Part shown: one piece after another, positions 37,564-48,821 of the stretch
Layout of the letters: each line of letters opens with the position of its first letter
How positions within the stretch are numbered: position 1 is the stretch's first letter
Origin: Ancylobacter sp. Lp-2
GTDB lineage: Bacteria > Pseudomonadota > Alphaproteobacteria > Rhizobiales > Xanthobacteraceae
Assembly (NCBI RefSeq): GCF_020523795.1
Contig: NZ_JAJALI010000011.1
Coordinates: 62,001-126,000 of the forward strand
DNA length: 64,000 nt
Reading direction: 5' to 3'
Program-made: the position numbers and the translations under genes
The notes under the pieces: generated by a model
The model's database searches: none
What the model was told of the DNA's origin: nothing
The model's input: only the letters and a program-made list of their open reading frames with translations

Positions 37564-37869
37564 GTTTATTTCTCCTGTCGTGGCCAGGATGAACGGAGGG
37601 GGTGGGCGTCGAGGCCCGTCTCTGTCGGGTACTGAGCTAGGCTACGTATAAGGACTGCCTATCGACAAAGATGATTTTCCAATCGGAGATATAGGCTGTG
37701 GCTATTGTGTGTAATTATAGGCAATTCATATAACACAGTGGATCGTATATCTTATTGTTTTTACGGTATTAATTGAAAACATATGTCAATAGTTTGTGCA
37801 TATGGACTATTTTTTAGTCGTTTGACATTTGGTTTTTGAGCGGCAGAGTTGGCGACGAAAGGCCTTTCC
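37564..37869. promoter_or_regulatory. A+T-rich divergent control region between the Liv operon and the LysR gene
   Basis: 306 bases far richer in A+T than the surroundings. Four copies of TAGGC/ATAGGC occur in 85 bases: 37638-37642, 37657-37662 (reverse), 37690-37696 and 37716-37722; the first two form an inverted pair and the last two a direct repeat 26 bases apart. TTGACA is at 37822-37827 on the plus strand without a clear -10. LysR-type regulators usually bind such divergent regions. Confidence 0.5.
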
Positions 37870-38832
37870 ATGGATCTGCGTCAGCTCAAATATTTCGTTC
37901 AGATCGCCGAAAGCGGGAATTTCTCGCGCGCGGCGGAGGTGCTGCGCATCGCCCAGCCCTCACTCAGCCAGCAGATGAAGAATCTGGAGGAGGAGCTGGG
38001 GGTGGACCTGCTGCTGCGCCATGCGCGCGGTGTCACCCCAACGGAGATAGGCCAGCAGTTCTACGACCACGCGCGGCGCATCCTCGAGGAGGTCGAGCGC
38101 ACCCGCGACGTCGTCCGGTCGCAGTCGCTGAACCCGTCCGGGCGGGTGTCGGTGGGCCTGCCCACCTCGGCCTGCCGCGGCCTGTCGCTGCCGTTGATCA
38201 CCGCGATGGAGGAGCGCCAGCCCAACATCACCCTGCACATCGTGGAGGCGATGACCGGCTACCTCGACGACTTCATCCAGATGGGTCGGCTCGACGTTGC
38301 CCTGCTCTACGACCACAAGGCCTTCGAGCATGTGGCGTGGACCGAGATGATGGTGGAGGACCTGATGCTGTTCGCGCCGCCGGATCATCCGGTGGTGGCG
38401 CAGGGCAGCATTTCCTTCCGCGACATGTTCGCGCTGCCCATCGTGCTGCCCGGCGCGCCCAATGTGATGCGCACGGTGATCGAGCAGTTCGCCGCCCGCC
38501 ACGACGTGGTGCCCAACGCCATGGCCTGCGACAGCCTTCCCGCCATCGCCCGCATGGTTCGCGCCCGCAAGGCGCTGGCGGTGATGCCGCATTTCGCCTT
38601 TTCCGACGAGATGGAGCGCGGCGAGATGGTCGCCGTTCCCATCGTCGACCCCACCCCGTCCTGGCGCCTGTCGGTCGTGGTCTCCCAGCGCACGATGAAC
38701 CCGCGCGGCAGCGAGGCGGTGGCCAAGGTGATGGCCGACGTCATCGCCGAGATGGTGGGAGCGGGGGTCTGGCTCGCCCGGCTCCGGGGCGACCGCGCCC
38801 GCCTTGAAACACTGCGTACCGTCACGCGCTGA
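37870..38832 (+). CDS. LysR family transcriptional regulator
   Basis: 320 residues from the ATG at 37870, chosen because MDLRQLKYFVQIAESGNFSRAA is the canonical LysR start. The helix-turn-helix is residues 16-45 (RAAEVLRIAQPSLSQQMKNLEEEL); the effector domain begins about residue 90 (GRVSVGLPTSACRGLSLPLI). The subfamily resembles Nac/CynR regulators of nitrogen or cyanate use (by sight, not by search). It is divergent from the Liv-type operon and 31 bases before an amidohydrolase gene, so it may control both. Confidence 0.9.
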   Translation: MDLRQLKYFVQIAESGNFSRAAEVLRIAQPSLSQQMKNLEEELGVDLLLRHARGVTPTEIGQQFYDHARRILEEVERTRDVVRSQSLNPSGRVSVGLPTSACRGLSLPLITAMEERQPNITLHIVEAMTGYLDDFIQMGRLDVALLYDHKAFEHVAWTEMMVEDLMLFAPPDHPVVAQGSISFRDMFALPIVLPGAPNVMRTVIEQFAARHDVVPNAMACDSLPAIARMVRARKALAVMPHFAFSDEMERGEMVAVPIVDPTPSWRLSVVVSQRTMNPRGSEAVAKVMADVIAEMVGAGVWLARLRGDRARLETLRTVTR

Positions 38833-38863
38833 CGCGCGCCCCCGATGCCGAGGAGACCGTCCG

Positions 38864-40111
38864 ATGGAACTGATCGTAACCAATGCCCGACTGGCGGATG
38901 AGCCGGAGCGGCTCGTCGACATCGCCATCGCCGACGGCCGCTTCGTGGCGATCGGGGCGGGTCTGGCGGGCGATGCCGAGCGGCTGGACGCGCAGGGCCG
39001 GCTGGTCGCGCCCGGTTTCGTCGAGACGCATATCCACCTCGACAAGTCCTGCATCCTGGAGCGCTGCCGCTCCGCGCGCGGCGATCTCACCGAGGCCATC
39101 GCCGAGGTCGCCCGGGTCAAGGGCGACTTCACCGCGGAGGACGTCTACGCCCGGGCCAGCCGCACCATCGAGAAATGCATCGCGCAGGGCACCACGCACA
39201 TGCGCACCCATCTGGAGGTCGATCCCGGCATCGGCCTGCGCAGCCTCGAGGGCGTGCTGGCGGCGCGCGAGGCTTATCGCTGGGCCATCGACATCGAGAT
39301 CTGCGTGTTTCCGCAGGAGGGGCTGCTCAACAATCCCGGCACCGACGAACTGATGGTGGAGGCGCTGAAGCGCGGGGCCGGCTGCGTCGGCGCGGCGCCC
39401 TACACCGACAGCGACCCGCACGGGCAGATCGACCGGGTGTTCGAGATGGCGCGCGAGTTCGACGTCGATGTCGATATGCATCTCGACTTCGGCACCGACA
39501 CGGCGGGGCTCGACCTGCATCACGTCTGCGATTGCGCGATGCGCTTCGGCTGGGGCGGGCGCACGGCGATCGGCCACGTGACCAAGCTCGCCTATGTCCC
39601 GCCGGCGCAGCGGGCCGAGATCGCCCGGCGCATGAGCGACGCCGGCGTGGCGCTCACCGTGCTGCCCGCGACCGACCTGTTCCTGATGGGGCGCGACCGC
39701 GACCATGCCAAGACGCGCGGCGTGGCGGAGGCGCACGAATTCCTGCATCACGGCGTGAACTGCTCGCTCTCCACCAACAACGTGCTCAACCCCTTCACGC
39801 CGTTCGGCGACTGCTCGCTGGTGCGGATGGCGAACCTCAACGCCAATATCTGCCATGTCGGCTCGGCGCACGACATGGGCGAGTGCTTCCAGATGGTCAC
39901 CGGCCGCTCCGCTCGCCTGCTGAACCTCGAAGATTACGGCATCGCGGTCGGTAATCCGGCGGATTTCGTCGTGCTCGACGCTGCCAGCCCGCAGGCGGCG
40001 GTGGCCGAGCTGGCGCCGGTGCTGCACGCCTTCAAGCGGGGGCGCCGGACGCTCACCCGCCAGCCGGCGCATCTCCATTTTCCCGAAGGGGCGTCCCATG
40101 CCCGTTCCTGA
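38864..40111 (+). CDS. Cytosine deaminase-like amidohydrolase
   Basis: 415 residues from the ATG at 38864 with GAGGAGA upstream. Metal motif HIHLDK in GFVETHIHLDKSCIL is diagnostic of the CodA-type group; further ligands are in HMHLDFGTDT-like DVDMHLDFGTD, GHVTKLAYV (His) and the TNNVLNPFTPFGD region, where the catalytic Asp of the usual SDN motif is less obvious because the sequence reads LSTNNVLNP. This Asp-to-Thr change deserves checking. Relatives deaminate cytosine, isoguanine or open cyclic ureides. It overlaps the next amidase by 14 bases. Confidence 0.87.
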   Translation: MELIVTNARLADEPERLVDIAIADGRFVAIGAGLAGDAERLDAQGRLVAPGFVETHIHLDKSCILERCRSARGDLTEAIAEVARVKGDFTAEDVYARASRTIEKCIAQGTTHMRTHLEVDPGIGLRSLEGVLAAREAYRWAIDIEICVFPQEGLLNNPGTDELMVEALKRGAGCVGAAPYTDSDPHGQIDRVFEMAREFDVDVDMHLDFGTDTAGLDLHHVCDCAMRFGWGGRTAIGHVTKLAYVPPAQRAEIARRMSDAGVALTVLPATDLFLMGRDRDHAKTRGVAEAHEFLHHGVNCSLSTNNVLNPFTPFGDCSLVRMANLNANICHVGSAHDMGECFQMVTGRSARLLNLEDYGIAVGNPADFVVLDAASPQAAVAELAPVLHAFKRGRRTLTRQPAHLHFPEGASHARS

Positions 40112-41309
40112 CGCCACGGCGACCGGCGCCTTCTGCGGGCCGAACAACGCCACCGCCAAGGGAGGCGGCGCGGGGCCGCTCGCCGGCCTCAGCTTCGTGG
40201 CCAAGGACATGTTCGACATCGCGGGCTCCGTCACCGGCAACGGCAATCCGGATTGGCTGCGTACGCATGAGCCCGCGCCGCGCCATGCCTGGGCGGTCGC
40301 TCGGCTGCTGGAGGCCGGCGCGGACCTGGTCGGCCGGACGGTCTGCGACGAGCTGTGCTACTCGCTGACCGGGGAGAACACCCATTACGGCGCGCCGCTG
40401 AACCCGGCCGCGCCGGCGCGGGTGTCGGGCGGCTCGTCGAGCGGCTCGGCCAGCGCGGTGGCGGCGGGGCTGGCCGATATCGGGCTCGGCTCGGATTGCG
40501 GCGGTTCCATCCGGGTGCCGGCCAGCTATTGCGGGCTCTACGGCATCCGTCCGACCCATGGCGTCGTTTCGCTCGACGGCTGCGCGCCGTTCGCGCCCAG
40601 TTTCGATTGCGTCGGCTGGATGGCGCGCGACGCCGCGACGCTGCTGCGGGTCGGCGAGGCGATGCTGGGCGCGGCGGCCGGGGAGCCGCCGCCGCCTCGC
40701 CTGCTGATGCCGCGCGAGGCGTTGGAGGCGCTGGCGCCGGACGTGCGGGAGGCGCTGGTGCCGGCGTTGCGGCGGGTAGAGGAGCTGTTCGGCGCGGCCG
40801 AGACGATCGACCTCGCCCCCGAAGGGCTGGCGCGGTGGTCGGCGGTGTTCCGCACGCTGCAGGCGGCGGAGATCTGGAACTCGCTAGGCGGCTGGATCGA
40901 ACGCGTCGGCCCGCAATTCGGCCCCGGCGTCGCCGAGCGCTTCGCCCTCGCCGGCACGGTGACGGCGGCGGAGGTGGGGCAGGCGAAGATCGAGCGCACG
41001 CGGATCGTCGAGGCTGTGCGGCGGCAGCTGGTGCCCGGCACGTTCCTCGTACTGCCGACGGTGCCGCGCGTCGCGCCGCTTAAGGGCCTCCCGGTGGCCG
41101 AGGTCGAGGTCGCCTATCGGAACCTCGCCATGAACCTCTTGTGCATCGCCGGGCTTGCCGGCCTGCCGCAGGTCTCGCTGCCGCTGGCTCACAGCGAGGG
41201 ATGCCCACTGGGACTGTCGCTGGTGGGCGCGGCCGGATCGGATCTGGCGCTTCTCGGGATGGCGCGGCAGATCGACCGGCACCGGTCGGCGCCGGGCGGG
41301 CCGGCCTGA
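40098..41309 (+). CDS. Amidase signature family hydrolase (short form)
   Basis: 403 residues. Catalytic Lys in LSFVAKDMFDIAG, glycine/serine-rich motif RVSGGSSSGSASAVAAG and GSDCGGSIRVPASYCG. The C-terminal region (LCIAGLAGLPQVSLPLA) is normal; the family is often 450-500 long, so this is a compact member lacking the usual N-terminal helices. Translation is probably coupled to the preceding deaminase-like gene through the 14-base overlap. Together they suggest ring-opening or deamination followed by amide hydrolysis. Confidence 0.88.
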   Translation: MPVPDATATGAFCGPNNATAKGGGAGPLAGLSFVAKDMFDIAGSVTGNGNPDWLRTHEPAPRHAWAVARLLEAGADLVGRTVCDELCYSLTGENTHYGAPLNPAAPARVSGGSSSGSASAVAAGLADIGLGSDCGGSIRVPASYCGLYGIRPTHGVVSLDGCAPFAPSFDCVGWMARDAATLLRVGEAMLGAAAGEPPPPRLLMPREALEALAPDVREALVPALRRVEELFGAAETIDLAPEGLARWSAVFRTLQAAEIWNSLGGWIERVGPQFGPGVAERFALAGTVTAAEVGQAKIERTRIVEAVRRQLVPGTFLVLPTVPRVAPLKGLPVAEVEVAYRNLAMNLLCIAGLAGLPQVSLPLAHSEGCPLGLSLVGAAGSDLALLGMARQIDRHRSAPGGPA

Positions 41310-41310
41310 G

Positions 41311-41417
41311 CTAGAGCGCTTTCGAGCGAAGTGGAATCCGGTTCGCGTGAAGAAAACGCGTCCGAACAAGACCCTGGAGCCTTTCCGGTGAAGCAGAGTT
41401 CACCGGAAAGGCTCTAG
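41311..41417. repeat. RIME-like intergenic palindromic element
   Basis: A 107-base element of two palindromic halves, starting CTAGAGCGCTTTCGAGCG and containing AGTGGAATCCGGTTCGCGTG. It resembles the roughly 108-bp RIME repeats of rhizobia and related Hyphomicrobiales in length, two-palindrome design and the AGAGC...GTGG...CCGGTT core. It fills the gap between convergent genes. No second copy was seen in the window. Confidence 0.6.
41377..41414. terminator. Bidirectional terminator hairpin (second half of the repeat)
   Basis: GAGCCTTTCCGGTGAA (41377-41392) and TTCACCGGAAAGGCTC (41399-41414) form a perfect 16-bp stem with a 6-base loop. Its last base is the first base of the PrpD stop on the minus strand, so it could end transcription from both sides. 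Confidence 0.75.
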
Positions 41418-42841
41418 AGGCGGGCGGCGAGCGCGGCGCCGAGGTCGGGCACGTTCTCGATGTCCTCGATGAGGGCAAGGAGATCGGCGCCGCGCCGGGC
41501 GTCGAGGACGACGGCGGCGTTACGGCGGAATTTTTCCGCCACGGCGTCGTCGGCAAGCGGCAGCCGCACGCCGCCGGGCGCGTCGACGGCAAGCGGCGAA
41601 CCAAGCACGGTGCCATCCTTCAACCGGACATCGACCCGGCCGGCGGGCCGGCGCTGGCCGCTCATCAGCGCACTCGCCTCCGCATCGACGGCACCGGAGA
41701 CGCGGGCGGCGAGGCCCTTCAGCGCCGGCGAGGCCATGCTAGCCGCGTCGTACCAGTGCGGCCGGTCGAGCCGCAGGGCGAGCGCCGCCATGGCGTAGGG
41801 GAACGAGAACTGCGCGTCGTTGATGCTGAGCGGGGTCGCATCCATGAAGTCGCGCAGCAGCGCGGCGTCGGTATGCACCACGATGGCCTCGATCGCCTCG
41901 GCCGGGATGGCGTGCGCGACCAGCAGTGCCTCATAGGCGCTGAGCGTCGCGTGCATCCAGCGGCAGGCGGGGTAGGGCTTGAGGGTGTTGAAGCCGAGCG
42001 TCCAGCGTTCGCCGAGGCCATCGGTGAGGCGTTCCGGCTCGAACTGGTCCGAACCCAGCATGCGCCACAGGCCGGAGGGGCCATCCAGCACCGCCCTGGC
42101 GCCGACGAGGCCGGCGCGGTGCAGGGCGACGCCGCGCACGCCAGCCTCCGCCGCCGGGGCGAGGAAATCCTTGAAGGTGATGAGCGGCCGGCGTTCCCAA
42201 TTGTATTTGCGCAGGCTCGGCACATTGGCGAAGGTGCCGGCGAAGCCGAGCGCGTTTTCCATGCCGTCGGCATCGAGGCCCGCCAGCCGGCCATAGGCGA
42301 TGGCGGCGCCGATGGCCTGGTGCTGGCAGACGCCATAGACGAGGCGGAAGCGCTCGATGCTCGGCTGGATCGCGCGGATCAGCCGGTTGTTCACCTCATA
42401 GGCCAGTGCCACGGCGGCGACGAAGGCGGCGCCGGACACCGGCCGCTCGAAGACGGCACTGAGCGCGGCGGCGACGTTGGAGGCCCCGGGATGCCCCATG
42501 CCGCGGCCGGCTTCATCCTCCAGCCCGTCGTCGAAATCGAGCGCGTTCATCGCCGCGGCATTGACGAAGGCCGCCGCCACCGGGCCGAAGCCTTCCGCCT
42601 CGCCCAGCACCCGGCAGGGGCCGGGCCGCGCCTCGGCCCGCGTCGCGGTGAGGATGCGCCTCTGCATGTCGGTCGGCGCACCGGCGAGGCCGCAGCCTAG
42701 GGCGTCGAGGATGTGGAGGCGCGCCTTCGCCCGCACGGCCGCCGGGATGCCGGCGCCGTCGAAGCTGGCGGCGAAGCGGCTGACGGCGGCGGTGACGCCG
42801 GCCTCCGCGGGGAGGGGATCAGGCGAGGAAGGCGCGGTCAT
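41414..42841 (-). CDS. MmgE/PrpD family protein
   Basis: 475 residues, normal length for the family that includes 2-methylcitrate dehydratase, cis-aconitate decarboxylase and related proteins. Landmarks: HILDALGCGLAGAPTDMQRRIL, AAAMNALDFDDGLEDEAGRGMGHPGASNVAAALS, and FNTLKPYPACRWMHATLSAYEAL. Substrate unknown; many members in catabolic clusters have no known reaction. Last gene of the amino-acid transporter operon and overlapping the aminotransferase-like gene by 23 bases. Confidence 0.88.
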   Translation of the reverse strand: MTAPSSPDPLPAEAGVTAAVSRFAASFDGAGIPAAVRAKARLHILDALGCGLAGAPTDMQRRILTATRAEARPGPCRVLGEAEGFGPVAAAFVNAAAMNALDFDDGLEDEAGRGMGHPGASNVAAALSAVFERPVSGAAFVAAVALAYEVNNRLIRAIQPSIERFRLVYGVCQHQAIGAAIAYGRLAGLDADGMENALGFAGTFANVPSLRKYNWERRPLITFKDFLAPAAEAGVRGVALHRAGLVGARAVLDGPSGLWRMLGSDQFEPERLTDGLGERWTLGFNTLKPYPACRWMHATLSAYEALLVAHAIPAEAIEAIVVHTDAALLRDFMDATPLSINDAQFSFPYAMAALALRLDRPHWYDAASMASPALKGLAARVSGAVDAEASALMSGQRRPAGRVDVRLKDGTVLGSPLAVDAPGGVRLPLADDAVAEKFRRNAAVVLDARRGADLLALIEDIENVPDLGAALAARL

Positions 42842-43727
42842 AGAGATCCGACAGGCGGGCGGTGACGGGACAGGGCAGCGCGGAGCCGATGGCGCGGCCG
42901 TCGAGGCTCCGCACCGGCGTGAGGCCGCCGAAGGTGCCGGTGACGAAGGCGCCGTCGGCGTTATAGGCCTCGGCGAGGGTGAAGTCGGTCTCGCGGCAGG
43001 CGATGCCTTCCCTGGCGCAGAGCTCGATCACCTTGCGCCGGGTGATGCCCTTGAAGCAGGTGCGGCCGGTGGAGGTGAGCAACTCGCCGCGCTTCACGAT
43101 GAAGAAATTGGTCGAGTTGCAGCTCGCCACGAAGCCGGCGGGATCGAGCATCAGCGCCTCATGCGCGCCGGCGGCGATAGCCTGCAACAGCGGGCGGATG
43201 AAGTTGAGCCGGCTGTGCGAATTCAGGTGCAGGTCGAAGCTGTCCGGGCCGGAGGTGCGGAAGGTGGAGGTGAACAGCTTGATGCCGGCCTTCTTGATCT
43301 CCGGATCCGGCACCTTGAACTCGGCGGTGATGGCGATGGTCGGCCGACCCAGCGCGTTGCGCGGATCCTGATGCACGGTGTGCTTCTCGCCGCGTGTGAC
43401 CATCAGCCGGAGATGGCCGCCATCGGTGATGCCGTTGGCGGCGCAGAGCTCCTCCAGCGCCGCCTTCATCTCGGCCTTGGTCCGTCCGATGTCGAGGGCG
43501 ATGGTGTTGGCGCCCTCATAGAGCCGGTCGAGGTGATCATCGACCAGCACCAGCCGGCCCTTGGCCATGCGGATGCCCTCCCACACGCCGTCGCCGAGGC
43601 CGAAGCCGGCGTCGAAGATCGACACCAGCGCCTCGGCGCGTTTCACCAGCCGTCCGTTGAGCCAGATCCACAGATCGTGGTTGCGCGGGTCCTCGACCGG
43701 CGTCTGCGCGCCCTTTTCCTCGGCCAT
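42819..43727 (-). CDS. Class IV aminotransferase homologue lacking the catalytic lysine
   Basis: 302 residues. The fold is plain: FDAGFGLGDGVWEGIRMAKGR, the PLP-phosphate Arg in DDHLDRLYEGA, GITRRKVIEL and TGTFGGLTPVRSLDG. By-eye alignment with D-amino-acid aminotransferase, ADC lyase and IlvE puts Asn169 (LHLNSHSRLNF) where the Schiff-base lysine should be (21 residues before EAL), and Ser202 (FVASCNSTNFF) where the glutamate contacting the PLP ring nitrogen should be. No lysine is nearby. It may be a pseudoenzyme, bind a different ligand, or use another chemistry. Second to last in the polar amino-acid transporter operon, 13 bases after the ATPase. Confidence 0.85.
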   Translation of the reverse strand: MAEEKGAQTPVEDPRNHDLWIWLNGRLVKRAEALVSIFDAGFGLGDGVWEGIRMAKGRLVLVDDHLDRLYEGANTIALDIGRTKAEMKAALEELCAANGITDGGHLRLMVTRGEKHTVHQDPRNALGRPTIAITAEFKVPDPEIKKAGIKLFTSTFRTSGPDSFDLHLNSHSRLNFIRPLLQAIAAGAHEALMLDPAGFVASCNSTNFFIVKRGELLTSTGRTCFKGITRRKVIELCAREGIACRETDFTLAEAYNADGAFVTGTFGGLTPVRSLDGRAIGSALPCPVTARLSDLYDRAFLA

Positions 43728-43740
43728 TCGCGGCTCCCGT

Positions 43741-44520
43741 TCAGAAATGGAAGGCGGAGAAGCGGCGCAGGAAGGCCTGCGTGCGCTCCTCGCGCGGGTT
43801 CTTCAGCACCTCGTCCGGGGTGCCCTGCTCGTGGATGCGCCCCTCGTGCAGGAACAGCACCCGCGTCGCGAAATGGTAGGCGAAGCCGAGCTCGTGGGTG
43901 ACCAGCAGCATGGTGCGGCCCTCCTGCGACAGGCCGAGGATGACATCCAGCACCTCGCCGACCAGTTCCGGATCGAGCGAGGAGGTCGGCTCGTCGAACA
44001 GCAGGATTTCCGGCTCCATGGCGAGCGCGCGGGCGATGGCGACGCGCTGCTGCTGGCCGCCGGAGAGGCGCTGGGGATACTGGTCTGCCTTCTCGGCGAG
44101 GCCGACGCGCTTGAGATAGTCCTGCGCCTTGGCGCGGGCCTCCTCGCGCTTCATGCCCTTCACCGTCACCGGGCCTTCCATCACGTTCTCCAGCACCGTC
44201 ATGTGCGGGAACAGGTTGAACTGCTGGAAGATCATGCCGACGCGGGTGCGCAGCCGGCGCAGCTCGCCGGATTTGGCGGTGAGGACGCCGTCCCGGCCCT
44301 GCGTGCCGATCGGCGCGCCGTCGAGCTCGATGCGCCCGGCGCTCGGCGTCTCCATGAAGTTGATGCAGCGCAGGAAAGTGCTCTTGCCGGAGCCGGAGGA
44401 GCCGAGGATGGCGATGCGCTCGCCGGCGCCGACCTTCAGGTCGATGCCCTTGAGCACCTCGTTGGGGCCGAAGCTCTTGCGCAGCCCCTCGACGGCGAGG
44501 ACGGGTGTCGCATCAGCCAT
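43741..44520 (-). CDS. Polar amino-acid ABC transporter ATP-binding protein (GlnQ-like)
   Basis: 259 residues from the ATG at 44520. Walker A GSSGSGKSTFLRCINF, Q-loop MIFQQFNLFPHMTV, signature LSGGQQQRVAIARAL, Walker B ILLFDEPTSSLDPEL, H-loop VTHELGFAYH. These are standard for the HisP/GlnQ group. Follows the second permease by 2 bases. Confidence 0.93.
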   Translation of the reverse strand: MADATPVLAVEGLRKSFGPNEVLKGIDLKVGAGERIAILGSSGSGKSTFLRCINFMETPSAGRIELDGAPIGTQGRDGVLTAKSGELRRLRTRVGMIFQQFNLFPHMTVLENVMEGPVTVKGMKREEARAKAQDYLKRVGLAEKADQYPQRLSGGQQQRVAIARALAMEPEILLFDEPTSSLDPELVGEVLDVILGLSQEGRTMLLVTHELGFAYHFATRVLFLHEGRIHEQGTPDEVLKNPREERTQAFLRRFSAFHF

Positions 44521-44522
44521 TC

Positions 44523-45191
44523 TCAGGCTCCCTTCGAGTTGAGGCGGCGCTCGAGCGCATAGGCGGCCAGCGTTCCCGGATAGATGAGGACGAAATAGAT
44601 CACCGCCACCACGGTGAAGGTCTCCAGCGGCAGGAAGGTCTGCGTGCTCAGCATCTTCGCCTCGTACATCAGCTCCTGCACGGTGATGGTGGAGGCGATG
44701 GAGGTCATCTTGGCGAGCTCGACGCCACGATTGGTGAAGGCCGGCACCATGCGGGCGATCGCCTGCGGCACGACGATCCGGCGCAGCAATTGCCACTCGC
44801 TCATGCCGATGGCGCGGCCAGCTTCCCACTGCCCGGCGGGCAGGGATTGCAGGCCGGCGCGCCAGATCTCGGCGCAATAGGCGGAGGTGTTGAGGAACAG
44901 GCCGAGCGCGGCGGCGGTGAAGGCGGTGGGCTGCCAGCCGGAGAGCGCGGGAAGCGCGTAGTAGAACCAGATCAGCTGGACCAGCACCGGGGTGTTGCGG
45001 AACAGCTCGATATAGGCGGTGGCGACGAGGTTGGGGATGCGGCGCGTGGAGGCGCGCGCGAGGCCGATGAACAGGCCGCAGACCAGCGCGCCGGAAAAGG
45101 CGAGGGCGAACAGCAGGATGGTGAGCTTCAGGCCGCGCAGCAGCAGGTCGCTATTGGCCAGGATCTCGCCGAACTGGAAGGAATAGCTCAT
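44523..45191 (-). CDS. Polar amino-acid ABC transporter permease
   Basis: 222 residues from the ATG at 45191. FRNTPVLVQLIWFYYALP and the EAA loop AGQWEAGRAIGMSEWQLLRRIVVPQA are typical of the HisMQ group. Five or so membrane segments. Five bases after the first permease stop. Confidence 0.92.
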   Translation of the reverse strand: MSYSFQFGEILANSDLLLRGLKLTILLFALAFSGALVCGLFIGLARASTRRIPNLVATAYIELFRNTPVLVQLIWFYYALPALSGWQPTAFTAAALGLFLNTSAYCAEIWRAGLQSLPAGQWEAGRAIGMSEWQLLRRIVVPQAIARMVPAFTNRGVELAKMTSIASTITVQELMYEAKMLSTQTFLPLETFTVVAVIYFVLIYPGTLAAYALERRLNSKGA

Positions 45192-45196
45192 GGCGA

Positions 45197-45868
45197 TCAC
45201 CGTGCCGCGCGGCGGGCGAGGCGGTGCTCCACCGCACGCATGCCCAAACTGGCGAGGAACAGCACGGTGAAGAACAGCGCCGCGACCGTGGAGTAGATCT
45301 CCATCGGCCGGTAGGTCTGCGTCGCCAGCACCATCGCCTGGTAGACGAGTTCGCCATAGGTGAGGGTGGCGGCGAGCGAGGTGGTCTTCACCAGCTCGAA
45401 GGAGCGCTCCATCAGCGGCGGGATCATGCGGCGGAAGGCCTGGGGCAGGATGATGCGCCGCATCAGCTGCGCATGGCCCATGCCGATGGCGCGGCCGGCT
45501 TCCCACTGGCCGCGCTCCACCGAGACGATGCCGCCGCGAAACACCTCCGCGAAGAAGGCGCCGGACTGCACCGACAAGGCCGCCGCCGCCGCCGCGAACG
45601 GGGTCAGGCTGATGCCGGTCAGGATCGGCAAGCCATAGAAATACCAGAAGAAATGCACCAGCGGCGGGGTGTTGCGGTAGAACTCGATGATCGCGGTGGC
45701 GGGGATGGAGAGGAACCGCGTCGGCGCCAGCCGCCCCATTGCCAGCACGAGGCCGATGACGAGGCCGAGGCCGATCGAGAAGCCGGAGAGCTTCAGCGTG
45801 TTGACGAGGCCTTCCAGCAGCACGCCGAAATTGAGCCAGACCGGCCGGAAATCCCACACATATTGCAT
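45197..45868 (-). CDS. Polar amino-acid ABC transporter permease
   Basis: 223 residues. FYRNTPPLVHFFWYFYGLP and the EAA loop RGQWEAGRAIGMGHAQLMRRIILPQA. Paired with the permease just downstream to form a heterodimer. It follows the binding-protein gene after a 94-base gap that holds a strong hairpin. Confidence 0.92.
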   Translation of the reverse strand: MQYVWDFRPVWLNFGVLLEGLVNTLKLSGFSIGLGLVIGLVLAMGRLAPTRFLSIPATAIIEFYRNTPPLVHFFWYFYGLPILTGISLTPFAAAAAALSVQSGAFFAEVFRGGIVSVERGQWEAGRAIGMGHAQLMRRIILPQAFRRMIPPLMERSFELVKTTSLAATLTYGELVYQAMVLATQTYRPMEIYSTVAALFFTVLFLASLGMRAVEHRLARRAAR

Positions 45869-45962: not shown

Positions 45963-46832
45963 TCAGGCTTTCCAGCGCTCGCGCATGATCGCCGGCGTCG
46001 AGGCCGGGTCGATGCCGCGGAAGGCGAGATAATCCTCGAAGATCTTCTGCGTCTGGCCGGTGGCGTAGAAATAGGCGAGGCAGACGCCCAGCCAGTCGCG
46101 CCAGCTCTTGTCGGCGACGTTCGGCACCGCGGCGGAGGAGGGCGACTCGCGCAGCGGCTGCGGCAGGATGACCTTGCCGCGCTTGAGACGCGACTGCAGC
46201 ATCACCAGCGCCGGGTGGAACAGCGAGATGCCGTCCATGCGGCCGGCAATGAAGGCGGCGCCGGTTTCGTCGGCGCTGGGGAAGCGCTCGATGGTGGCCT
46301 TGGGCAGGCGCACGGTGATGTCGCGATCGGGCGAGGTACCGAGCACGACACCGATGCGGAATTCCGGCTTGTTCATCTCCTCCCACGAGGTGACGGTGAC
46401 GCCGTCGGCGAGGAGCACGCCCTGCGCGTACCAGAACATGGGCTGTACCGGGAAATCCACCGCCAGCGCGCGCTGCGGGGTGGCGTCCATGGTGAACATG
46501 ACGTCGAACTGGCCGGCCTGGAGCGCGGCGACGGCATTGCCCCAGGTGGTCTCGACCGGCACCGGCTTCACGCCGAGTTCCTTGGCGACGGCGACGCCGA
46601 GGCCCCAGCCGAGGCCGTACCACTCGCCGCTGCGCTGGTCCTTGTAGAACCACGGCTCGCCCGGCGCGACGCCGATGCGCAGCTCGCCGCGGTCGCGGAT
46701 CGCCTTCAGCGAGCCGCCGGCGGCGTCCTGGGCCGACGCGGAGGATGAGGAGGCGGCGGCGAGGGTCGCGGCGGCTCCGACGAGCGATCCGGCGGCCAGG
46801 AAGGCGCGGCGACTGCCGACCTGTTCAGTCAT
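45963..46832 (-). CDS. Polar amino-acid-type ABC transporter substrate-binding protein
   Basis: 289 residues from the ATG at 46832, preceded by AGAGGAT. A twin-arginine-like leader (SRRAFLAAGSL) precedes an Ala/Ser-rich signal ending SASAQDA. The mature protein has the family 3 pattern RDRGELRIGVAPGEPWFYKD, GWGLGVAVAKELG and GQFDVMFTMDATPQRALAVDF. Binds an amino acid or related zwitterion in the periplasm; ligand not determinable. Confidence 0.9.
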   Translation of the reverse strand: MTEQVGSRRAFLAAGSLVGAAATLAAASSSSASAQDAAGGSLKAIRDRGELRIGVAPGEPWFYKDQRSGEWYGLGWGLGVAVAKELGVKPVPVETTWGNAVAALQAGQFDVMFTMDATPQRALAVDFPVQPMFWYAQGVLLADGVTVTSWEEMNKPEFRIGVVLGTSPDRDITVRLPKATIERFPSADETGAAFIAGRMDGISLFHPALVMLQSRLKRGKVILPQPLRESPSSAAVPNVADKSWRDWLGVCLAYFYATGQTQKIFEDYLAFRGIDPASTPAIMRERWKA

Positions 46833-46903
46833 GTGAATATCCTCTGGAACGAGCGGGTTAATTATATAGTTATTTGATATATAATTTTGCAATTCATTTC
46901 TTA

Positions 46904-46933: not shown

Positions 46934-47554
46934 TCAAGATGCTTCCGGCGGTGTCTCTCTGAAATTGAGGCTCTGGTCGGCGGCGCAGACCCAGAAAATC
47001 TCGGCATCGTCCTCGCCGGCGCTGAGCAGGGCATGGCCCATGGTGCTGTCGAAATAGGCGCTGTCGCCCTCGTCGAGCGTCACCGGCGCATAGAACTCGG
47101 TGAGCAGCGTCACCCGGCCCTTGAGCACCAGAACGACCTCCTCGCCGGCATGGGCGACCAGCGTGCCGAATTCGCGCGTCTCATGGGCGCGCAGCCGTGC
47201 CTTCATCGGCTGCATGCGCTTGGCGGTGAGGTCGGAGCACAGCATTTCCAGCGTGTAGGCGGGGGTGCGGATGTAGTCGCCCTGCCCGGCGCGGGTGAGC
47301 GAGCGGCGACCATGCGGCACCTGCTTGCGGGTGGAGGAGAACAGCTCGGAAATATCGACATCCAGCCCTTTGGCGAGGCGGATGATGTTGTCATAGGTCG
47401 GGGAGAGCAGGTTGTTCTCGATCTTGGAGATCGCCGACGGCGAAATGCCGGAACGGGCCGACACCTGCTTGATGGTGAGACCGGAACGGCCGCGCAGCCC
47501 TCTCACACGGGCACCGAGATCGACCCCGAGGCTCTCGCCGGTCTTCATGTCCAT
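46934..47554 (-). CDS. XRE-type helix-turn-helix regulator with C-terminal cupin domain
   Basis: 206 residues from the ATG at 47554, chosen for the GGAGG upstream; a longer frame to 47617 lacks a ribosome site. HTH at about residues 25-65 (LTIKQVSARSGISPSAISKIENNLLSP). The cupin half contains VLVLKGRVTLLTEFYAPVTLDEGDSAYFDSTMGHALLS. Such regulators (PuuR type) often sense amino acids or amines for adjacent catabolic genes. It is first on the strand leading to the amino-acid transporter. Confidence 0.9.
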   Translation of the reverse strand: MDMKTGESLGVDLGARVRGLRGRSGLTIKQVSARSGISPSAISKIENNLLSPTYDNIIRLAKGLDVDISELFSSTRKQVPHGRRSLTRAGQGDYIRTPAYTLEMLCSDLTAKRMQPMKARLRAHETREFGTLVAHAGEEVVLVLKGRVTLLTEFYAPVTLDEGDSAYFDSTMGHALLSAGEDDAEIFWVCAADQSLNFRETPPEAS

Positions 47555-48821
47555 GGTCGTGCCTCCGCCGGCAATACGAGTCCGACACATCAAAGCATTG
47601 GCGGCGGAAGCGAACAATATATTCCGATAGGAAAATCGATGACGTCCTTGCGTCCGTCTGCTCGGGGGTAAGCGGTGGTCGCTGTGGGCGGATCCCGGGC
47701 CGCGTGGGCGTTACGGCTGACGCCGCTTCCGTCGAAAGCCTGTTTCGGGAGGTGGTTCGCCGCCATGCCGACCGACGGCAATCCTGGCATTCAATCCCCG
47801 ATATGGCGCCGCTCATTGCGTTGCGATGGCGGCGCCACCGGGGCTGGATGAAAGGTGCCGGTGATCGCCGGCGGGCCGGCGAGGAGGCGTGAAAGCGGCC
47901 TCGGTTTCGGGTTCAGCTTCGGTGCCTCAGATCTCGTGCCCGGCATCGACAAGCTGTCGGCCACCGTCGCGCGGCAGATATCGAGCGGCTGGTTCGCTCC
48001 GGAGCGCCGGGCGCTGATGCGGCGCGGGTCGTATCGGGGATCCACACCGTGACGACCTCCGGCGGTGTGGGATGCCGCGCGCGCCGTGTGTTGGTGGAGC
48101 GCGCATCGGGGAGGCGGGAAACCGTGCCCGGGAAACCGCGCATGATCGCGTGGAATCTTCGCTCGATCGAACCTGCCGTGGATTGCTCCCGAACCGATCC
48201 GGTCGGCGGCGAGCCGTGGAAGCGGATGCGGAGGAGGCGGGGTTCAGGCCGGGGGCATCGTTCGGCGACGATGTCCTTTTTTCCCGCCTCGCGGGTGCAC
48301 GGGTTCTCGCTCGGCGGCGTGGGGGGACAATCGCGACCTGCAGAGTTGGTCGGCGCGAGCCCGGCTGTTGCACCCTATGTCCCGAGGCTTCGTGCGGCTG
48401 GGAAGACGAATGACGGCGCGGCTGCCGGCCATTGCAGGCGACGCAAGGTCGGCGTCTGGTTTTACTGCGCTGCACCATGCCCGGCCGCGCTCGAAGACTT
48501 TCCTCGACATTATAAATCATGATCGGAAGGATAAGATCTTATCATTGGAAAATATCGGGTCGAGCTAACACGCTACCCCTTGCCGGGCGATGACGCGCCG
48601 GCATTCCGCCGAAACTCGGAGACACGAGGCGGCTGGAGGAAAACGCCAACGCCATCCGCCGCCGGACAGTGAGGACGGAGGCGGCCTCCCGTTCATCCTC
48701 CCGCCGATGACGCGGGAGCGATCGACGCGAAGGCCGCACCGGTGCAGCCCGGGCGTGCGCCCGGCTTGCCCCGGCGGTCCACCCCTGCCGGCCCGCGGGA
48801 CTGAGCCCCGGAGGTGGTGCC
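47555..48821. other. 1.27-kb stretch without a recognisable gene
   Basis: Six-frame reading gives only short arginine- and serine-rich frames of the kind produced by chance in GC-rich DNA. A small A+T-rich patch at 48500-48560 carries palindromes. The right end should contain the promoter of the TctC-like gene. Decayed genes cannot be excluded. Confidence 0.5.
48530..48543. promoter_or_regulatory. 14-bp perfect palindrome, possible operator
   Basis: GATAAGATCTTATC is self-complementary over 14 bases, with ATCATGAT (48516-48523) just before it, in the only A+T-rich patch of a long gene-free region. It is 280 bases upstream of the TctC-like gene. Confidence 0.35.

Follow-up and report, generated by a model that had tools for sequence, protein, structure and literature searches.

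What is left for a class IV aminotransferase-like protein to do once its two canonical cofactor contacts have been replaced? The question is raised by a gene in a 64,000-nucleotide stretch of the Ancylobacter sp. Lp-2 genome (contig NZ_JAJALI010000011.1, positions 62,001 to 126,000 of the forward strand), here called the window. Fold type IV enzymes have an active-site lysine and a glutamate at the ring nitrogen (N1) of pyridoxal 5'-phosphate (PLP), as described in PMC9309667, and a K143-PLP Schiff base has been shown for one of them (PMC8401098). An initial annotation, made from the DNA alone, held that the product of this gene has Asn169 for the lysine and Ser202 for the glutamate, and read this as a pseudoenzyme or a new catalytic use of the fold. 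By alignment, the protein belongs to a single, selected branch of fold type IV with Asn for Lys, Ser or Thr for Glu, and the phosphate-binding cup kept. The branch accompanies a sulfotransferase family or, in the window's lineage, a polar-amino-acid importer. It probably has a different job, on a sulfur- or amino-acid-like compound, and it is very likely that the protein is functional and not an ordinary transaminase. The gene and its critical codons are:

42819..43727, minus strand: lysine-less class IV aminotransferase-like protein P0002, 302 amino acids (translation, Pfam and PDB match)
43524..43526, minus strand: codon 68, phosphate-cup Arg, kept (Arg in 66/66 family and 20/20 outgroup rows)
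43221..43223, minus strand: codon 169, AAT (Asn), at the place of the Schiff-base Lys (alignments and codon reading)
43209..43211, minus strand: codon 173, Arg (Arg or Lys throughout the family members read: 102 Arg and 56 Lys, n = 158)
43122..43124, minus strand: codon 202, AGC (Ser), facing the PLP-N1 Glu (of 158 genes, 101 have Ser and 57 have Thr)
43041..43049, minus strand: codons 227-229, retained phosphate-cup Gly-Ile-Thr (Thr229 in 66/66 family and 20/20 outgroup rows)
42933..42941, minus strand: codons 263-265, retained phosphate-cup Thr-Gly-Thr (64/66, 66/66 and 63/66 family rows)

The protein belongs to the PLP fold type IV superfamily both by profile and by fold. Alignment to Pfam Aminotran_4, a check that the initial annotation had suggested, gives this as the single domain found (residues 47-274, profile positions 1-222 of 223, E 2.5e-43). 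Eighteen NCBIfam models for transaminases or aminodeoxychorismate lyases also match, among them PRK08320, ilvE_I and D_amino_aminoT, every one under its curated cut-off; the best score is 223.2 of 363 bits. In a HMMER alignment to the archaeal transaminase 5mqz, Asn169 lies opposite the Lys of NIKSLN and Ser202 opposite the Glu of GYVSEGSGDN. With Asn169 in 66/66 family rows against Lys in 20/20 outgroup rows, and Glu at position 202 in all 20 of the latter, both proposed replacements are upheld. The region around Asn169 (residues 163-180 of the 302 are SFDLHLNSHSRLNFIRPL) is free of lysine, as had been noted: the closest lysines are 145, 146 and 150, at least 19 residues away, and, downstream, 212. 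The phosphate cup as judged by sequence, Arg68, Ile228-Thr229 and Thr263-Gly264-Thr265, is retained in full, and the earlier statement that the phosphate-binding Arg and the Ile-Thr motif survive holds across the family (Arg68 and Thr229 in 66/66 rows), with position 228 Ile in 52/66 rows and Val or Leu in the others. Of the features expected of a fold type IV transaminase, the protein has the cup and lacks the Schiff-base lysine and the N1 glutamate.

These replacements characterize a whole family. A genome-contig scan gave 346 relatives. The 80 best were examined, and Asn with Ser is present in 80/80; the scan patterns included CNSTNFFI, so this sample leans toward close kin. In a class sample of 289 genomes searched with the window protein, the family, defined as at least 40% identity, is matched in 36; every one of these 36 genes combines Asn169 with Ser202 or Thr202, whereas the 14 genes below 40% identity that were read all have Lys and Glu. 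A phylum sample of 398 genomes has the family in 41, the gene of one (G388) being left out of the residue readings. Over the pooled loci, Asn occupies position 169 in 158/158 distinct genes at or above 40% identity (window included) and position 202 is Ser in 101 and Thr in 57. The Asn/Ser pair, for which a survey of orthologues had been suggested, holds in its first residue and broadens to Ser or Thr in its second. Of 20 distinct genes below 40% identity, 19 have Lys with Glu; the twentieth (L081) reads Thr at position 169 in the tblastn alignment, an alignment slip, and Lys with MAFFT. The window genome itself carries eight other Aminotran_4 genes, and the seven read (all except L082) have Lys and Glu.

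Carriers of the family found in the genome-contig scan are Alphaproteobacteria and other Pseudomonadota, as well as a small number of metagenome assemblies from Chloroflexota. The gene is accessory: another Ancylobacter genome (G365) shows no family match. A sister group at 43-50% identity occurs in plasmid records, and the five of nine records that were read all have NSHSKLN and Thr202. In the annotated plasmid records examined, members go under 'aminotransferase class IV', 'D-amino acid aminotransferase' or 'branched-chain amino acid aminotransferase/4-amino-4-deoxychorismate lyase'; such labels probably mislead throughout the branch.

A quick IQ-TREE phylogeny was built from the window protein, 65 of 125 family rows (60 having been removed at 82% identity or more) and 20 outgroup rows, with the root set by us on the outgroup, whose long branches were flagged by the program. 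The split between the family and the Lys/Glu outgroup has a support of 100, and a single change between Lys and Asn is needed. The gene is under purifying selection: the ratio of nonsynonymous to synonymous substitution rates (dN/dS) of the window gene is 0.22 against Ancylobacter oerskovii, 0.14 against A. defluvii and 0.12 against both A. radicis and a Rhizobium. The claim that both cofactor contacts have been lost from a well-kept, operon-embedded gene is correct, and the loss is family-wide. Ten putative active-site positions, mapped from the Escherichia coli branched-chain transaminase IlvE, have a mean conservation of 0.91 against 0.70 for all columns, a value reached by 51 of 20,000 random sets. 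Residues newly fixed in the family, each in 66/66 rows, are Trp49, Arg53, His105, Lys115, Gln120, Glu136, Ser172, Asn204 and Ser219. The raised conservation and the new fixed residues together argue against simple decay. Since the loss of Lys and Glu is family-wide and selected, that part of the initial annotation which implies 'not a normal transaminase' is well supported; on sequence, either of its two outcomes, a pseudoenzyme or new catalysis, may hold.

The neighbouring genes bear on what the branch might do instead. The link to a sulfotransferase, Sulfotransfer_5 (PF19798), was discovered by scanning the neighbours of loci without a transporter and was then tested in the two genome samples. 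In the class sample PF19798 occurs in 27/289 genomes, that is, in 25 of the 36 with the family and two of the 253 without (Fisher p 3e-25); the phylum sample has it in 37/398, comprising 36 of the 41 carriers and one of the 357 non-carriers (p 1e-44). The p values are merely a guide, because the samples overlap and include related genomes, one family code (f24) making up 22 of the 41 phylum-sample carriers. The co-occurrence in the class sample covers 16 family codes, and two phylum-sample genomes that carry both genes fall outside the class. The two genes are same-strand neighbours in 21/25 class-sample and 27/36 phylum-sample genomes, or 44 of 56 distinct genomes overall. Within these 56, the lysine-less gene comes first in 37 and the sulfotransferase in seven, and the two lie apart in 12; the gap within the pair is often -1 or -4 bp, in a count that includes some genes twice. 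The family's lowest-identity member (L135, 40%) also carries the pair.

The partner is a separate protein, found beside the family in many lineages without the ATP-binding cassette (ABC) transporter. The ten sulfotransferases scanned are assigned to PF19798 at E 3e-52 to 6e-104; one, queried against PDB sequences, has no clear relative there (best E 0.14). A fused sulfotransferase-aminotransferase gene was not seen among 79 loci with both matches, some genes being fetched twice; plant 'branched-chain-amino-acid aminotransferase-like' proteins may be fusions of these two domains. Nor was a constant third gene seen around the pair, apart from synteny blocks common to related genomes; the other neighbours scanned at non-ABC loci (Ada/AlkA, EamA, response regulator, PhoU, argininosuccinate synthase, MutS and Atg22-like genes among them) look like local synteny and were set aside as uninformative. 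In the literature, PF19798 is listed as a sulfotransferase domain (PMC11625862) and used for collecting sulfotransferases (PMC12506393). A choline-sulfatase-like gene adjoins the lysine-less gene in two loci (L096:7930-9468 and L160:6987-8528), a second link to sulfate esters.

In the window, the gene lies in a different setting. In minus-strand order, an XRE-cupin regulator is followed by a solute-binding protein, two permeases, an ATPase, the lysine-less gene and an MmgE/PrpD-family gene:

46934..47617, minus strand: XRE-cupin regulator, opening the inferred operon (Pfam HTH_3 and Cupin_2)
45963..46892, minus strand: family-3 solute-binding protein (Pfam SBP_bac_3)
45197..45868, minus strand: ABC permease 1 (Pfam BPD_transp_1)
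44523..45200, minus strand: ABC permease 2 (Pfam BPD_transp_1)
43741..44502, minus strand: ATPase of the polar-amino-acid ABC transporter, ending 13 bp before the lysine-less gene and also its upstream neighbour in many relatives (Pfam ABC_tran)
41414..42841, minus strand: MmgE/PrpD-family protein, whose ATG, as listed, gives a 23-bp overlap with the 3' end of the lysine-less gene (Pfam MmgE_PrpD_N/C)

The PDB sequences nearest to the solute-binding protein are the reconstructed ancestor AncCDT-1 (E 2.6e-27) and general amino-acid binders, and this search indicated no specific ligand.

How often the two settings occur was assessed at 125 family loci, made up of 80 genome-contig loci, 10 plasmid records and 35 class-search loci. 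A locus was labelled ABC if an ATPase of at least 200 bits lay within 3.5 kb or two permease matches within 6 kb, and ST if a Sulfotransfer_5 gene lay within 2.5 kb. Codon-scored gene calls, used for reading neighbourhoods, missed genes in some loci (L130, L132 and L135). By these rules 69 loci have an ABC transporter, 23 a Sulfotransfer_5 gene and one both, whilst 24 have neither and eight are ended by a contig edge. Thirteen distinct genomes carry the family without PF19798; the transporter adjoins the gene in nine (window, L134, L150-L152, L154, L155, L158 and L223) and was not seen in two (G107 and G226), the remaining two (G288 and G596) being unassigned; in two further genomes (L234 and L235) the sulfotransferase is elsewhere and the lysine-less gene lies behind an ABC transporter. 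On the tree, the context of the labelled rows switches at least four times. Rows linked to the sulfotransferase fall in both halves of the family's deepest division, and the sulfotransferase context may therefore be older than the transporter context.

Other genes recur around the family. The MmgE/PrpD gene is repeatedly found with the ABC transporter and the lysine-less gene: in Ancylobacter, Rhizobium and Roseomonas (L001-L006), in Pantoea and Paracoccus yeei (L092 and L098) and in one genome outside the class (L223). A CLC chloride channel gene lies downstream in 10 of the 80 genome-contig loci (L010:6961-8736 and nine of its cluster); CLC-bearing loci include Azospirillum and, at L090:7925-9709, Agrobacterium, and this neighbour may point to a release of anions or a balancing of charge. 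A ProC-like (pyrroline-5-carboxylate reductase) gene lies within the transporter operon of Agrobacterium (L090:2969-3805) and also at L150:1966. On the plus strand of the window, at 37849-41309, amidohydrolase and amidase genes stand behind a LysR regulator, convergent to the operon; among the 80 genome-contig loci the amidase is matched just twice, both times weakly, and the amidohydrolase nowhere.

The make-or-import pattern, in which the gene accompanies either a sulfotransferase or a transporter, suggests one compound behind both gene contexts. The explanation that we favour, although tentatively and with the odds somewhat against it, is elimination chemistry with non-covalently held PLP or pyridoxamine 5'-phosphate (PMP), akin to that of ColD. 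The cofactor would be held in the phosphate cup, as in the lysine-less enzymes ColD and E1, with a neutral ring nitrogen next to Ser/Thr202. Ser or Thr at the ring nitrogen occurs in fold type II lyases and would suit elimination. The conserved polar residues His171, Arg/Lys173, Arg107 and His105 would handle acid-base work and substrate binding. The substrate would be a sulfated amino or hydroxy-amino compound made by the sulfotransferase, and the sulfate would be the leaving group, since a sulfate ester would leave well. Transporter lineages would import the same or a related compound rather than make it. Non-covalent PLP or PMP is preferred to other arrangements on account of the intact cup and the strict Ser or Thr at position 202.

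Several observations weigh against this explanation or some part of it. The identity of the substrate is read from the gene neighbourhood, and sulfate as leaving group is a guess from the same source. The window's own genome has no match to PF19798, and thus no pair, so the link to sulfate chemistry comes through the family and not through this locus. Neither partner is nearby at 24 of the 125 loci, and PF19798 occurs without a family match at E 1e-30 in three genomes, strongly in G053 (7.7e-52) and weakly in G261 and G604. The partner's function as a sulfotransferase is predicted by its Pfam assignment. Of the residues proposed to act, His171, two residues past Asn169, is Leu in 2/158 genes, whilst ColD has its His at the lysine position itself, and Arg or Lys at position 173 is also present in 7/20 outgroup rows. 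The AlphaFold model has a mean predicted local distance difference test score (pLDDT) of 83, but falls below 50 at residues 162-169, making the active-site geometry unreliable.

The main rival is a sensor or partner protein, that is, a pseudoenzyme whose ligand is amino-acid-like or PLP and which serves as regulator or scaffold for the ABC ATPase or sulfotransferase next to it. This is a real possibility, if a less likely one. It would account for the loss of both canonical catalytic contacts, for the position of the gene beside the ATPase in ABC-type loci and the sulfotransferase elsewhere, and for the lack of a constant third pathway gene around the pair in the loci surveyed. It fits poorly with the putative active-site positions being more conserved than the rest of the protein and with the new fixed residues, such as Asn204, Ser172, His105, Arg107 and Gln120. 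Moreover, the two partners are unrelated proteins, so a shared metabolite fits better than a shared physical partner.

A fuller version of the favoured explanation places the protein and Sulfotransfer_5 at successive points of a bacterial pathway, so far undescribed, that handles a sulfated amino compound, the protein being a sulfate eliminase that either holds PMP or PLP or is cofactor-free, with Ancylobacter-like lineages having dropped the sulfotransferase and importing the compound. This more detailed proposal is rather doubtful. Its cofactor-free form, taken as a separate explanation, is unlikely: here the cup would hold the substrate's own sulfate or phosphate, and Asn169, His171, Arg/Lys173 and Ser/Thr202 would handle the amino end. 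The retention of the cup while both PLP-specific contacts are gone is what would be expected, the sulfotransferase is an apt gene partner, and there is a precedent in AziU3/U2, which form aziridine rings by PLP-free elimination of sulfate in a different fold. However, the strictness of Ser/Thr202 (158/158) would also be expected from a contact with N1 of PLP.

It is less likely still that the protein is a slow or altered PLP transaminase in which another residue or a free amine stands in for the lysine. The fold and the cup do match those of branched-chain and D-amino-acid transaminases, and the K145Q mutant of D-amino-acid transaminase retains trace activity; but no conserved lysine is present at or near the lysine position, and the N1 glutamate has gone as well. 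Lys226 and Lys150, which the initial annotation had named as possible substitutes, are rejected as surrogates because both positions vary across the family: position 226 is Lys in the window and many close relatives but Asn, Pro, Ala, Gly, Arg, His, Leu or Thr in other members, and no residue reaches 50% at position 150 in a consensus of 40 rows. In those rows Lys115 and Lys138 are the only invariant lysines, with Lys145 nearly so. Finally, a sequencing error at 43221-43223 or a decaying pseudogene can be dismissed, since the same residues recur in 158/158 distinct genes, the AAT codon is shared by A. oerskovii, A. defluvii, A. radicis and a Rhizobium, dN/dS against these four is 0.12-0.22, and the same Asn is present in the crystal structure 7Z79.

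That structure is the closest known relative. The best PDB match of the window protein (E 1.5e-105) is 7Z79, 'Crystal structure of aminotransferase-like protein from Variovorax paradoxus', released 2022-04-13; it is 56-57% identical (Foldseek), with the motifs LNSHSRLN and SCNSTN and Asn at the lysine position, and by identity (at least 40%) and by Asn with Ser/Thr the window protein belongs to the same lysine-less family. The next match, 9J32, is the 'mutant N174K' of the Variovorax protein, released 2025-01-29, whose existence implies that the depositors had noticed the missing lysine. The missing lysine is thus already known to others. A literature search, with most subscription journals outside its reach, found no papers on the function of 7Z79 or 9J32 and nothing relevant on lysine-less class IV proteins or a sulfotransferase link; it also turned up no printed account of the family-wide loss of the Glu, the pairing with a sulfotransferase or the importer variant.

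Beyond this family, the comparison is with fold type IV transaminases. The 50 Foldseek matches shown are 7Z79, 9J32 and, by title, fold type IV transaminases. The archaeal-type branched-chain transaminases 5mqz and 5cm0 and the fold type IV protein 7p3t have the fold of the window model (template modelling (TM) scores 0.81-0.84), and D-amino-acid transaminases are more distant relatives. With 5mqz and 5cm0 the window protein shares the phosphate-cup Arg, Ile-Thr and Thr, but these enzymes keep the Schiff-base Lys and the N1 Glu where the lysine-less family has Asn and Ser/Thr. The branch is a natural experiment on fold type IV without its lysine and glutamate, and the links to a sulfotransferase and a transporter make its function testable, with a sulfated, amino-acid-like metabolite as the target.

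A proposed mechanistic parallel lies outside the fold, since ColD and E1 belong to fold type I, not IV. According to PMC8987622, these nucleotide-sugar 3-dehydratases are aminotransferase relatives without the catalytic lysine, as are the proteins described here, with PMP as the cofactor. They differ in having sugar substrates and in having His, not Asn, at the place of the lysine. In the lysine-less family Asn occupies the exact lysine position, and a histidine, His171, stands two residues further on in 156/158 genes.

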